In this document: positions 2,064 through 6,980 of the stretch, piece by piece
How positions within the stretch are numbered: position 1 is the first letter of the stretch
Layout of the letters: the number at the start of each line of letters is the position of its first letter
Source: Deltaproteobacteria bacterium
GTDB lineage: Bacteria; Desulfobacterota; Syntrophia; Syntrophales; UBA2210
Direction of reading: 5' to 3'
Length of the DNA: 7,427 bases
NCBI GenBank assembly: GCA_016934695.1
Contig: JAFGSH010000216.1
Coordinates: 1 to 7,427 of the forward strand
Notes under the pieces: generated by a model
Databases searched by the model: none
What the model was told of the DNA's origin: nothing
Seen by the model: the letters and a program-made list of their open reading frames with translations, nothing else
Program-made: the position numbers and the translations under genes

Positions 2064-3152
2064 ATGAGCAAACGATCCGACAATGGGCCTGAGATTCGCT
2101 CCGAGATCGTCCTCTACCAGACCGAGGACGGGCAGAGCCGCATCCAGGTGCGGTTGGAAGACGAAACGGTCTGGTTGACACAGGCCGCTATGGCGGAGCT
2201 TTTCCAGACCTCGGTCCCCAATATCAACATACATATCCGTAACATCCTTCGGGAAGAAGAGTTACGGGCGGAATCAGTTATTAAGGAATTCTTAATAACT
2301 GCCGCCGACGGGAAGAAATACCGCACCAAACACTATACCCTCGACATGATCCTGGCCGTCGGCTACCGGGTCCGCTCTCTCCGGGGGACACAGTTCCGTC
2401 AGTGGGCCACCGAACGCCTGCGCGAGTATCTCGTCAAGGGGTTTACACTGGACGACGACCGGCTGAAGGGCCGGGATCGGCTGGGCGACTATTTCGACGA
2501 ATTGCTGGCCCGCATTCGCGAGATCCGGGCCAGTGAAAAGCGGGCCTACCAGCGCATACGCGAAATCTTCGCCCTGGCATCGGACTGTCGGGAAGGGGAG
2601 CAGGAAACGCAGGCATTCTTTGCCGCCATGCAGAATAAGATGCACTTCGCCGCCGCCGGGATGACGGCGGCGGAAATCATTCGGCGGCGGGCCGACGCGG
2701 ACCGGGCCAACATGGGCCTCACGTCCTGGAGCGGCGGCCGGGTCCTGAAACGCGATGTGGCGACGGCCAAGAACTATCTCACCGAGGGAGAAATCGATAC
2801 GCTCAACCGCATTGTGGTGATGTTCCTCGATCAGGCCGAGTTTCGAGCCCAGCGGCGGCAGGATCTCAGAATGCGGGACTGGTCCGGGTTCCTGGACAAA
2901 TTTCTGCGGGACACCGAACTGCCCGTCCTGGAAGGTCTCGGCGAGGTGAGTCATGACGAGGCGCTTGTCTGGGCCGAAACCCAGTACGACGCCTTCGCCG
3001 AACGGCGGAGGCTGGAGGCGGAACAGACCGCCGAGTCTCGTTACCTGGACGACCTGCAGTCTTCGGCCGAGGCGCTGGAGAAGAAACGAAAGGGATCATC
3101 CTCCACACGGGCATCGTCGAAGCCCCGGAGCAAAAACCCAAGCAAAAAATAA
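2064..3152 (+). CDS. RhuM-family protein
   Basis: This 362-residue protein belongs to the RhuM family, named after a Salmonella pathogenicity-island gene. Its biochemical function is not established, and members are often found beside restriction-modification systems. Residues about 10-130 carry the family core: WLTQAAMAELF (37-47), the HIRNILREEEL segment (57-67), YRTKHYTLDMILAVGYRVRS (86-105) and FRQWAT (111-116). The N-terminal part resembles DNA-binding domains seen in phage antirepressor-like proteins, which is inference. The middle is helical and charged, and the last 25 residues are a basic, serine- and lysine-rich tail (KKRKGSSST..., ending NPSKK). ATG 2064 is chosen because AGAGG lies just upstream at 2056-2060 within a long purine-rich stretch. 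The 111 bp after the methyltransferase gene contain no gene I can support, so the two may be co-transcribed. Codons 71-80 include rare TTA and ATA codons that form part of a long inverted repeat. It converges with the acyl-CoA synthetase gene, 36 bp away. Confidence 0.85.
   Translation: MSKRSDNGPEIRSEIVLYQTEDGQSRIQVRLEDETVWLTQAAMAELFQTSVPNINIHIRNILREEELRAESVIKEFLITAADGKKYRTKHYTLDMILAVGYRVRSLRGTQFRQWATERLREYLVKGFTLDDDRLKGRDRLGDYFDELLARIREIRASEKRAYQRIREIFALASDCREGEQETQAFFAAMQNKMHFAAAGMTAAEIIRRRADADRANMGLTSWSGGRVLKRDVATAKNYLTEGEIDTLNRIVVMFLDQAEFRAQRRQDLRMRDWSGFLDKFLRDTELPVLEGLGEVSHDEALVWAETQYDAFAERRRLEAEQTAESRYLDDLQSSAEALEKKRKGSSSTRASSKPRSKNPSKK
2275..2301. repeat. 27-bp AT-rich inverted repeat inside rhuM
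   Basis: The arms CAGTTATTAAG (2275-2285) and CTTAATAACTG (2291-2301) are perfectly complementary over 11 bp, separated by the 5-base centre GAATT. It lies about 210 bases into the rhuM coding region and covers codons for SVIKEFLITA. In RNA it would form a strong AT-rich stem; in DNA it could be a dimer binding site. The repeat is directly seen; any function is inference. Confidence 0.6.
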
Positions 3153-3188: not shown

Positions 3189-4604
3189 TCACCCTCTCAC
3201 AGTCTTCCTCTCATGAAACCGGATGAACTTGTCCAGGGCGGTGGCGCATCCCTCGATCGAGGTGAAGGCCGGGATGCCCGCTTTCCAGCATACATCCTGG
3301 TTGTCGAAGGACAGTTCGTAGGATTCCTTCAGGGCCGCGCAGTGGAGCAGCATGGCGACCGGTTTCCTGACACCCTCGATATTGCTGATCATCTTCTCCG
3401 TCATGGCAAGGTGCCGCACATGTTCCGGGGTCAGGAAGGCCAGGATATCATAGGGGACGTGGAGCAGGATGATGTCGATCTCGTCCCAGTCGTCGAGGAT
3501 CTCGATGGTCTTTCTGAACCCGTCGGTCTGATAGAAGAGGGCCGTCGTGTCGATGGGGTTGGTGTAGATGTTCCCCGCCCCGGGGTGCAGGTCCTGGAGC
3601 CGGGCCTGGATGGCCGGGGTGAGACGGGTCAGGGAGAGGTTCTTCCGCTCGAAGGCGTCGGCGGCAAGGACGCTGATACCGCCTCCGATGCCGACCATGC
3701 CGATCCTCCGCCCCGCCGGGGGCTGCATGTATCCGAAGAGGAGCGCGAGATCGATCATCTCGTCGATGCTGTCGGCCTGGAGCGCCCCGGTCTGCGCGAT
3801 CACCGCATCCCATATCCTGAGTGAACCCGCGAGCGACGCCGTGTGCGACTGCGTTACCGCCGCCCCCGCCTCGGTTGCCCCACCTTTCAGGATGATGGTG
3901 GGTTTCGCGCGGGCCGCCCGCTCAAGCACATTCTTGAACCGCCTGCCGTCCTTGATCCCCTCGATATAGGCGCCGATCACCTTGGTTTCTTTATCTTCGG
4001 CGAGGTACTCGATCAAGTCCGATTCATTGATATCGCAGGCGTTGCCGTAACTGACGGCCTTGCTGATCGGCGCCCCTCGCCGCGGGGCCATTTTGCCGAG
4101 ATAGATCGCGTTGCCGCCGCTCTGGCTCGATATGCCGAACCAGCCCTGCGCATGGGGCAGGTTTGCCGAAAAGTACAGGCCGCCGCCCGGACAGTATATC
4201 CCCATGCAGTTGGGACCGATCAGGCGCATCCCGCTGCCCTGGGCGACGGAGACGATCTCACGCTCCAGGGCGATTCCCTCTTCCGTTCCCAGCTCGCTGA
4301 ATCCGGCCGTAAAGAGCGTGCCGGCCCTGACCCCCTTCAGTGCGCACTCCCGTATCACGCCGGGCGTCTGATTCGCCGAGACGGCAATGATGACGTAATC
4401 GACGGGGCCGGGGATATCGGTAACGGATCGATAGCAGGGAAGGCCCATCAACTCGTCGGCGTCACCGCAGACCGCATACACCTGCCCGGGAAAGCCCCCT
4501 TCGAGGAGCTGTTTCAGAAAGAAGCCCCCCAGGCCGCCCGACCGCAGGACAACGGCCACGGATTGTGGTGAAAAGAGGAAGTCCAGCCTCGATGTGTCGC
4601 TCAT
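3189..4604 (-). CDS. NDP-forming acyl-CoA synthetase, alpha-type subunit (CoA-binding protein)
   Basis: This 471-residue protein resembles the alpha part of ADP-forming acetyl/acyl-CoA synthetases, which interconvert acyl-CoA, ADP and phosphate with free acid, ATP and CoA. Residues about 8-105 form the N-terminal CoA-binding Rossmann domain. Residues 128-265 form the succinyl-CoA ligase-like domain, with GPNCMGI (130-136), SQSGG (160-164), SYGNACDINESDLIEYL (185-201) and QSHTASLAG (252-260). By family analogy, His254 in that last motif is the phosphohistidine acceptor. Residues about 290-460 form the third alpha domain (GMVGIGGGISVLAADAFE and NPIDTT segments). The ATP-grasp beta half found in single-chain homologues of about 700 residues is absent here, so a separate beta partner is needed for full activity. 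The usual glycine-rich GAS loop of the CoA domain is replaced by VVLRSGGLGG, which may alter CoA binding. ATG 4604 is preceded by AAGGGA. The gene lies 36 bp after the dehydrogenase gene on the same strand, so they probably form one operon. Confidence 0.85.
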   Translation of the reverse strand: MSDTSRLDFLFSPQSVAVVLRSGGLGGFFLKQLLEGGFPGQVYAVCGDADELMGLPCYRSVTDIPGPVDYVIIAVSANQTPGVIRECALKGVRAGTLFTAGFSELGTEEGIALEREIVSVAQGSGMRLIGPNCMGIYCPGGGLYFSANLPHAQGWFGISSQSGGNAIYLGKMAPRRGAPISKAVSYGNACDINESDLIEYLAEDKETKVIGAYIEGIKDGRRFKNVLERAARAKPTIILKGGATEAGAAVTQSHTASLAGSLRIWDAVIAQTGALQADSIDEMIDLALLFGYMQPPAGRRIGMVGIGGGISVLAADAFERKNLSLTRLTPAIQARLQDLHPGAGNIYTNPIDTTALFYQTDGFRKTIEILDDWDEIDIILLHVPYDILAFLTPEHVRHLAMTEKMISNIEGVRKPVAMLLHCAALKESYELSFDNQDVCWKAGIPAFTSIEGCATALDKFIRFHERKTVRG

Positions 4605-4640
4605 GATCCCGTTCCCTTCGATACCGGCGCGGTCGTCCCG

Positions 4641-5459
4641 CTAGCTGAAGTACATGCCGCCGCAGACGTTGATCCCCTGCCCCACGATCTCCTTGCCCTC
4701 CTCGGAGGCGAGGAAGATGACGGCGTTCCCGATATCCTCCGCCGTCTGGGGCGTCCGCTTGCGGACGGAATTCTTGACGAGGGTATCGAAGACGGCGTCG
4801 GGGTCCATCCCGCGGAAGACAGGGTGAGAGGCGCTGAGGAGCCGTCCCATGTTCGCCCCCATCTCTGTCTTGATGAGGCCGGGGCAGACGGAGTTGACGT
4901 TGACATTGTAACGGGCCATGTGCATCGCCACCGCCTGGGTCAGTGCGATTACCCCCGCCTTGCTGGTGTCGTAATGGGCGAGAAAGTCGAGGGGCATGCG
5001 GCCGCCGATGGAGGCGATATTGATGATCTTGCCGCTCCGCTGCTTCTTGAAGTGGGGGATAGCGGCCCGGTTGCACAGGAAGACGCCCTTGAGGTTGACG
5101 TCGATCGTCCGGTCCCACTCCTCGTCGGTGATATTCTCGATGGTCAGCAGCCTTGACGGGTCCCTGTCGGGGGCGTACCCGCCCACGCCGGCGCTGCAGA
5201 CCAGGATGTCCATGCCACCCATTTCCCGCAGCGCCGTGTCGATCAGGTCCTGACACTGATCGGAGAAGCGGACGTCCGTTTGGACGGCAATGGCCCTCAC
5301 CTCTTTCTCCCGGACCCGGGCCGCCACCCTTTCGGCCATATCCAGATTCACGTCGCTGACGACGACGTGCGCCCCTTCTCTGGCGAGGCACAGGGAGATC
5401 CCCTCTCCCAGTCCGCCGCCGCCGCCCGTGACAACCGCAATCTTATCCTTCAACCGCAC
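4641..5459 (-). CDS. Short-chain dehydrogenase/reductase (SDR), probably NAD-dependent
   Basis: This 272-residue protein is a classical SDR oxidoreductase. It would reversibly oxidise a hydroxyl, probably on a hydroxyacyl or alicyclic substrate, to a ketone in the cytoplasm. Visible motifs are the nucleotide-binding TGGGGGLG (11-18), Asp36 after the second strand (VVVSDVN, favouring NAD over NADP), CSAG in place of the usual NNAG (88-91), the active-site Asn122 (VNLKG), Ser150 (NIAS), Tyr163 and Lys167 (YDTSK), and the PG motif (VCPGLIKTEM, 192-201). The start is GTG at 5459, chosen because GGGAGG lies about 10 bases upstream and because the Rossmann strand KDKIAVVTG begins a few residues later, as is normal. 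The length is slightly above the usual 245-260 because of an insertion near residues 95-112. It precedes an acyl-CoA synthetase subunit gene, which suggests a role in acyl-CoA or alicyclic acid metabolism. The substrate cannot be read from sequence. Confidence 0.9.
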   Translation of the reverse strand: MRLKDKIAVVTGGGGGLGEGISLCLAREGAHVVVSDVNLDMAERVAARVREKEVRAIAVQTDVRFSDQCQDLIDTALREMGGMDILVCSAGVGGYAPDRDPSRLLTIENITDEEWDRTIDVNLKGVFLCNRAAIPHFKKQRSGKIINIASIGGRMPLDFLAHYDTSKAGVIALTQAVAMHMARYNVNVNSVCPGLIKTEMGANMGRLLSASHPVFRGMDPDAVFDTLVKNSVRKRTPQTAEDIGNAVIFLASEEGKEIVGQGINVCGGMYFS

Positions 5460-5762: not shown

Positions 5763-5918
5763 ATGTTTCCTGAATTCCGGCGTTATCTTGAACAGACCGA
5801 CTGGGATGAATATTCTGCTCGAGGCGATTCCTATCTCGAGATATTCTATACCGGTGTCATTATTCTGTCGGTGGTGGTAGTCGGTCTGTGCCTGTTCCCC
5901 CAGTATGTTCCGTGGTAA
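5763..5918 (+). CDS. Small single-pass membrane protein (51 residues), unknown function
   Basis: I do not recognise this protein. It starts at ATG 5763 with GGAG at 5753-5756, 6 bases upstream, and ends with TAA 5916-5918. The first 27 residues are polar and rich in acidic and aromatic residues (MFPEFRRYLEQTDWDEYSAR). Residues about 28-45 (FYTGVIILSVVVVGLCLF) form one clear hydrophobic helix with a single Cys43, and the tail is PQYVPW. The charge pattern does not settle its orientation in the inner membrane. It is too short for default gene callers. Support comes from the ribosome binding site, the coherent polar-then-membrane architecture and the sigma-54 promoter about 155 bases upstream. 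It ends 30 bp from the convergent cutA stop. It could be an accessory subunit of a transporter or a stress-linked membrane peptide; both are guesses. Confidence 0.5.
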   Translation: MFPEFRRYLEQTDWDEYSARGDSYLEIFYTGVIILSVVVVGLCLFPQYVPW

Positions 5919-5948: not shown

Positions 5949-6272
5949 TTATTGCGTGACGGCTGTGATCCACTGCAGGTACGCGCCGCTCCCCGCCGTT
6001 ATCGGAATCCGAACGATTTCAGGAAGATCGTAGATGTGATTCCGGGAAATACATTCCTCGATCGCATCATATGAAGCGGACGGCGCCTTGATCAACAGCA
6101 ACTGTTCTTCGTCCCTGTTGAGGGCGCCGTCCCACTGGTAAAAGCTGGTAACACCCGTCACCTGAACACACGCCGCCAGCCGAGTCTCGACGAGCAGCCG
6201 GGCCAGCCGTTCTGCCTCGTCCCGGCTCCCGCAGGTGGTCAGTATGACGCAATATTGCTCGGCTTCGGCCAT
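5949..6272 (-). CDS. cutA: CutA1 divalent-cation tolerance protein
   Basis: The 107-residue product matches the CutA1 family, small trimeric cytoplasmic proteins related in fold to PII signal proteins and linked to copper and divalent-cation tolerance, though their true role is unsettled. Family blocks seen are YCVILTTCGSRDEAERLARLL, the conserved ETRLAACVQV (strand with Ala-Ala-Cys-Val), SFYQWDG, EEQLLLIKA, and near the C-terminus HIYDLPEIVRIPI followed by YLQWI. The length agrees with the family (about 105-115). ATG 6272 is preferred over the upstream in-frame GTG 6317 because the family's first strand begins right after it. The ATG lies 7 bases downstream of the selenoprotein stop codon, and the only strong purine run (GGAGGG, 6290-6295) is about 17 bases away. 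Expression therefore probably depends on coupling to the preceding gene. It is the last gene of the arsR-hesB-cutA operon. Confidence 0.92.
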   Translation of the reverse strand: MAEAEQYCVILTTCGSRDEAERLARLLVETRLAACVQVTGVTSFYQWDGALNRDEEQLLLIKAPSASYDAIEECISRNHIYDLPEIVRIPITAGSGAYLQWITAVTQ

Positions 6273-6279
6273 AGTTATA

Positions 6280-6600
6280 TCAACTGCACCCTCCGCCGCA
6301 CGCGTCGCACGCGGCACCAGTGGACAGGTTTGACATGATGGAAAAACCGGAACCCCTCGCCGAATCGATAAAATCGATGGCGATCGGTTTGGCTTGTTCG
6401 AATAGCTGTTCGTCTATCACAAAGGTGATTCCGTCTTCCTTGAAAATCTTATCCCCTTCTCGCGTCTCATCCAGAGACATACCCAGCGAGGGCCCCGATC
6501 ACCCGCCTCCGGCATAGATCAGCCGGACGGGGAGTTTTTCTTCCCTCGATTCGAGGACCTTCTTGATCATCTCCTGTGCCTTTTCCGAAACTGTAAACAT
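6280..6600 (-). CDS. HesB/IscA-like selenoprotein (UGA codon at 6499-6501 read as selenocysteine)
   Basis: Read with the in-frame TGA at 6499-6501 as selenocysteine, this gives one 106-residue HesB/IscA-like protein. ATG 6600 has AAGGAG 8 bases upstream and the stop is TGA 6280-6282. The pieces before and after the TGA are in the same frame and are consecutive halves of one family: MFTVSEKAQEMIKKVLESRE, then VRLIYAGGG-U-SGPSLGMSLDE, then GITFVIDEQLF and a GSGF block. Sec34 falls where IscA has its first conserved metal/cluster ligand cysteine (GGGCSG). The C-terminus has Cys98, Cys101 and Cys105 (CDACGGGC) instead of the usual IscA CGCG ending. HesB-like selenoproteins with Sec at this cysteine are a known prokaryotic family. 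A SECIS-like hairpin follows the UGA at the right distance. The likely role is binding iron, Fe-S clusters or another metal in the cytoplasm. It is the second gene of the arsR operon, 23 bp after arsR. The alternative, a nonsense-mutated pseudogene, is much less likely. Confidence 0.88.
6459..6490 (-). promoter_or_regulatory. Bacterial-type SECIS hairpin of the HesB-like selenoprotein mRNA
   Basis: Starting 9 bases after the UGA, the mRNA can form a lower stem CUCGC/GCGAG (5 bp), a 7-base bulge on the 5' side (UGGGUAU), an upper stem GUCUC/GAGAC (5 bp) and an apical loop UGGAU. The loop begins 26 bases after the UGA and has G in its second position. This fits the known bacterial rules: loop 16-37 bases from the UGA, with a G among the first two loop bases. 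Such a hairpin recruits SelB with Sec-tRNA. Both stems are perfect and stack on the 3' side. Confidence 0.75.
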
Positions 6601-6623
6601 TGTGTCTTCTCCTTTTGTCTGTT

Positions 6624-6980
6624 TTACTCCTGAGTAGCGCGGTTCACCAGTGCGCTGTAATATTCCATAATGTTGCCGACAAGTTTGCACGAGATGCGCG
6701 GCCCGTCGACCTCCCCGTACACCCAGCCCGTCTCCTTCAGGATCTTCAGGTGCTGAGAGACGCTCGCCTGAGCCAGGGGGAGGGCCTTGACGATATCCGC
6801 ACAGATGTACTTCTTGTCCGGGGGCTTGTTGGACAGCATCCGGATGATCTCGATCCGCGCGGGGTGGGCAAGTCCTTTCGAGAGCCGTGCCAGGATTGCC
6901 TTCCGCGTCGCATGGTCCGTTTTCTCAAGATCCCCGATATCAAAGGAACGCGGTCCGCCGATACATTCACCTGTCGCCAT
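6624..6980 (-). CDS. ArsR-family winged helix-turn-helix transcriptional regulator
   Basis: This 118-residue protein is an ArsR/SmtB-type repressor, a dimeric DNA-binding protein that often releases DNA on binding metals or on thiol oxidation. The core is visible in order: GLAHPARIEIIRML (36-49), an alpha-3/alpha-4 region ICADIVKALPLAQASVSQHLKILKETGWV (59-87) whose recognition helix is QASVSQHLKIL, and a wing EVDGPRISCKL (90-100). The sensing site is not a clear CxC motif; single cysteines are Cys6, Cys60 and Cys98, so a metal or redox signal is possible but unproven. ATG 6980 has a G-run (GGGGG) about 10 bases upstream. It is the first gene of the operon with the HesB-like selenoprotein and cutA. 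A palindromic operator candidate lies about 80-105 bases upstream of its start, so autoregulation of the whole operon is likely. Confidence 0.93.
   Translation of the reverse strand: MATGECIGGPRSFDIGDLEKTDHATRKAILARLSKGLAHPARIEIIRMLSNKPPDKKYICADIVKALPLAQASVSQHLKILKETGWVYGEVDGPRISCKLVGNIMEYYSALVNRATQE

Follow-up and report, generated by a model that had tools for sequence, protein, structure and literature searches.

In the 7,427-nucleotide stretch of Syntrophales DNA analyzed here (the window), an in-frame TGA (6499..6501, minus strand) stands inside what looks like a small IscA/HesB-type gene, which raises the question whether this codon ends the gene or is read as selenocysteine (Sec). The gene would occupy 6280..6600 on the minus strand: from the ATG at 6600-6598, a frame of 106 codons is interrupted by one internal TGA alone (6501-6499), at residue 34, and closes on another TGA (6282-6280). 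The ribosome binding site that the initial annotation had placed before the start is indeed there, as an AAGGAG (6609..6614, minus strand) 8 nt 5' of the ATG. When open reading frames are listed with table 11, the gene is split into two pieces, 6690-6499 (63 aa) and 6480-6280 (66 aa). Read through, its product has a Cys-rich C-terminal tail with Cys 98, 101 and 105.

By comparing the read-through product with family models, we found that it scores over the cut-offs of NCBIfam NF038090 (IscA_HesB_Se; 108.3 bits, cut-off 85) and of Pfam Fe-S_biosyn (PF01521; 32.5, cut-off 26.3). It misses those of TIGR01911 (HesB_rel_seleno; 48.2 vs 66.35 bits), of TIGR00049 and of the equivalog models for ErpA (NF010147; 47.5 vs 117), IscA (TIGR02011; 39 vs 150.6) and SufA (TIGR01997; 35 vs 136.2 bits). 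The predicted structure (mean pLDDT 80.5) resembles the fold of E. coli IscA/SufA, with TM values of 0.70 to 0.76 to 1r94, 1s98 and 2d2a chain A (0.75 to IscA 1r94). Since pLDDT falls below 50 in residues 95-106, the metal site is not readable from this prediction. A sequence search of the PDB reached four distinct sequences at E up to 0.1, and in three alignments with structurally characterized A-type proteins, residue 34 fell on the GCSG-motif Cys. The TGA thus interrupts a HesB-like gene at its first conserved Cys, as had been proposed from the window's sequence.

Then, nine loci with 47-83% identity were picked up in a scan of genome contigs; they are recorded as Deltaproteobacteria, Syntrophales, Syntrophaceae or Syntrophus. 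All nine carry TGA at the same place. We looked for degraded sequence after it and found that the frame stays open in 9/9, in L009 only to about residue 70, beyond which the sequence reads N, so that the claim of one frame conserved on both sides of the TGA holds. At a wider scale, NF038090 was matched in 127 of the 155 genomes in the order of G003, over its cut-off in 121. We gathered 30 loci, 100 further stretches, the window and the nine relatives into a family set of 140 sequences, of which 135 differ from one another around the site; the set excludes some of the listed over-cut-off NF038090 matches and the under-cut-off ones. Among these 135 distinct genes, which are related sequences and not independent events, the codon at the Sec site is TGA in 120, Cys in 12 and neither in 3 (two Trp, one without either); an in-frame TGA at the conserved Cys position is therefore common to the relatives. 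Cys homologues aligned at residue 34, for which the initial annotation had suggested a check, were also found among database proteins (P0002, 88% identical, and P0003). In some genomes, e.g. G029 and G030, Sec and Cys copies of the family coexist, which makes the question why an A-type protein uses Sec testable. Two of the 120 TGA genes (L127 and L157) show a variant of the site, with a Cys immediately before the TGA, ahead of the GP motif. The two Trp genes (L149, L155) and L156, which has none of Cys, Sec and Trp at the site, come from G083, G082 and G081, each of which has several family copies.

The initial annotation had also pointed to a SECIS-like hairpin behind the TGA. According to the part of PMC1088965 available to us, a bacterial SECIS element is a stem-loop right after the UGA, with a small apical loop containing a G. 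The window's hairpin, GUCUC-UGGAU-GAGAC (6464..6478, minus strand), is part of the coding sequence, has a 5-bp stem and starts 20 nt downstream of the TGA. Folding the window as a single sequence gave no signal in four stretches (z 0.11 to 0.38), the hairpin being not more stable than shuffles, so that by itself it is indistinguishable from chance. No Rfam family reached its gathering score in the window, and the three matches obtained with a lax threshold (E 2.3 to 5.6) were all far below gathering, at chance level.

Despite this ordinary stability, the hairpin is constrained across the 120 Sec genes, in a comparison where every count is raised by common ancestry. The spacing between the TGA and the stem is 20 nt in 120/120, all five pairs form in 118 (in L107 and L122 the outermost one is absent), and the loop is UGGAU in 92 genes and UGGAC in 28. 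When the partner strand was slid by 1 to 3 bases, five pairs were formed in 0/120 genes, and when synonymous codons were resampled at the genes' own usage (200 runs), they were formed in a mean of 4.4 and a maximum of 11 of 120. Positions outward of the stem pair inconsistently (78/120 and 0/120). One variable pair occurs as G-C, G-U, U-G, U-A or A-U and is nevertheless paired in 120/120 (shuffled mean 101.0). A second is C-G in 115 genes, U-A in 4 and U-G in a single gene (shuffled mean 116.2); none of 2000 shuffles came up to either observed value. The two loop-adjacent pairs are invariant and the outermost pair shows no gain over shuffles (118 observed vs 118.0 expected), so covariation is confined to two pairs. 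Codon choice follows the hairpin as well: the Ala codon inside it is GCT in 104/104 cases vs 34/306 downstream, and the Leu codon is CTG in 120/120 vs 161/393 downstream. Together, this constraint argues that 6478-6464 is very probably a SECIS element located in the coding region.

In the Cys genes, all five pairs are found in 5/12 (Fisher p 2e-7 vs the Sec genes, uncorrected for kinship). Such persistence was foreseen by what is in print, as the available text of PMC1794560 reports that a HesB-like gene of Desulfitobacterium hafniense with Cys has a SECIS-like structure, putatively a remnant. In the Sec genes, the hairpin appears to fix codons and to couple the amino acid at residue 42 to those at 45 and 46, while the Cys genes are looser.

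The search for Sec genes that the initial annotation had suggested for the host was made indirectly, in the genomes of the nine relatives and in 14 control genomes. Since under-cut-off matches turned up in many controls (14/14 for SelB, SelD and tRNA-Sec), only over-cut-off matches were counted. SelB and SelD were each found in 9/9 relatives vs 2/14 controls. SelA was found in 8/9 vs 1/14 and tRNA-Sec in 7/9 vs 5/14, in genomes whose completeness is not stated; in G006, the ninth genome, a frame of 132 aa matches SelA in part, with 96.5 bits. In all nine relatives, the best SelD match itself carries one in-frame TGA.

Could the window's gene be a Cys gene in which the cysteine codon has been lost, as a pseudogene or through a sequencing error? 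P0002, known as a protein only, has Cys at this residue and is 88% identical, and a single substitution may be all that lies between Cys and TGA. Yet a TGA at the same place in 9/9 relatives and in 120/135 distinct genes, followed by a constrained hairpin, makes such an accident hardly conceivable. It is only marginally less improbable that UGA is decoded as Trp under a reassigned code, or passed by ordinary read-through. Residue 34 is Trp in 9 of the 26 database proteins that we retrieved (protein sequences only), perhaps because genes were called under a code in which TGA means Trp, and at the Sec site a genuine TGG stands in two genome copies, L149 and L155. However, TGA also terminates the gene in the window, L002, L006, L007 and L008 (TAA does so in L001, L003, L004 and L005), the 15 of 135 genes without TGA comprise 12 with Cys and 2 with Trp, and both the Sec machinery of the relatives and the conserved hairpin speak against this decoding.

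Alternatively, the locus might encode two separate small proteins, an N-terminal peptide of 33 residues and a C-terminal protein of 66 residues that begins at Met41. A protein database search with the selenoprotein gave 52 matches, 33 of them 62-70 aa long, and among the 7 short entries in the 26 of these 52 that we retrieved 6 begin with MSLDE and 1 with MTLDES. These starts are those expected if a gene caller began after the TGA, and the short entries are explained as the output of one that stops there. Moreover, full-length Cys homologues exist, and a break at this point would fall between two strands of the predicted fold, 25-30 and 38-43, so we give two proteins next to no chance. The 33 truncated relatives show again that annotation loses selenoprotein genes. 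Taking together the shared TGA, the Cys homologues, the constrained hairpin and the Sec machinery in the nine relatives' genomes, the Sec reading put forward initially is upheld: from these comparisons, 6600-6280 is almost certainly an intact A-type (IscA/HesB) selenoprotein gene whose internal TGA is decoded as selenocysteine.

SelB, together with Sec-tRNA, reads a SECIS hairpin and inserts selenocysteine at UGA. In this gene, SelB and Sec-tRNA would recognize the hairpin 20 nt after the UGA and place selenocysteine at residue 34 instead of terminating, a recoding backed by the comparison above. The selenolate would then replace the first ligand cysteine and, with the tail formed by Cys 98, 101 and 105, probably bind iron or an Fe-S cluster.

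The selenoprotein gene has close neighbors on the same strand. A gene for an ArsR/SmtB-type regulator (118 aa; 6624..6980, minus strand) ends 23 nt upstream of it, and one for a CutA-type protein (107 aa; 5949..6272, minus strand) has its start codon 7 nt after the selenoprotein stop. Judging by order, strand and spacing, the three genes are probably carried on one transcript under ArsR control. Both neighbors are present in the same order and strand in L002, L003 and L005, with CutA following at 7, 8 and 10 nt, respectively, and ArsR preceding at 23 nt in L003 and 22 nt in L005; in L002 the ArsR frame overruns the matching end. Within the available DNA, L001, L004 and L054 have CutA without ArsR (upstream, 529 bases are available for L001 and 1117 for L004) and L057 has ArsR without CutA. 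Neither was found beside L006-L009 or the remaining distant loci with the window's proteins as queries and flanks of mostly 1.5 kb, a search that diverged or more distant copies would escape. At the thresholds used, we therefore rejected the idea that ArsR and CutA generally accompany the family. The row ArsR-HesB(Sec)-CutA seems particular to the close lineage, and only part of the close relatives have it. Our literature search found no paper joining the selenoprotein, CutA and ArsR. One could speculate that in this lineage the Sec form belongs to an ArsR-controlled metal unit with CutA, where its selenolate and Cys-rich tail would bind a soft metal or metalloid, rather than being a general Fe-S carrier, but we consider this unlikely.

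Beyond CutA, on the plus strand, a 51-aa open reading frame (5763-5918) has a hydrophobic stretch recognizable by eye; Pfam gave it no match at E up to 1. Its counterparts in L002 and L003 also lie after CutA on the opposite strand, with 71% (51 residues) and 67% (48 residues) identity, and its frame scores above the other two; it is a conserved small protein without a name. Farther away, 3189-5459 on the minus strand holds a gene whose product has CoA-binding and succinyl-CoA-ligase-like domains, together with a short-chain dehydrogenase, both of which also follow CutA in L003 (88-89% identity). On the plus strand, the window opens with the C-terminal part of a Type ISP restriction-modification protein (3-1952), followed by a RhuM-family gene (2064-3152; Virulence_RhuM is a Pfam name only).

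HesB-like selenoproteins are an established family, as the initial annotation had stated. In the portions of these papers that were available, PMC1794560 counts 11 of them, several in Deltaproteobacteria including Syntrophus aciditrophicus, PMC1242214 names HesB among the known selenoproteins, PMC1088965 mentions the HesB-like protein as a known selenoprotein not detected in its dataset, and Table 1 of PMC13188914 lists it with the motif UxGP and the model TIGR01911. The novelty first assigned to this instance and its operon is thus only partly retained: the window's gene is one more HesB-like selenoprotein of a long-known family, and the ArsR-HesB(Sec)-CutA row, seen in close relatives alone, is the only local part.

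Compared with the HesB-like selenoproteins described by NF038090, the window's protein shows no visible difference, as domain, length, position of Sec (UxGP) and hairpin after the UGA are all alike; its gene is set apart by lying between those for ArsR and CutA. With TIGR01911 (HesB_rel_seleno) it has in common the UxGP motif and a small A-type domain, although its score lies under that model's cut-off. With E. coli IscA, SufA and ErpA it shares the fold and the place of the first Cys, which is taken here by Sec. The C-terminal cysteines differ too: they are arranged as CxxCxxxC in the window's protein and as CGC in IscA.
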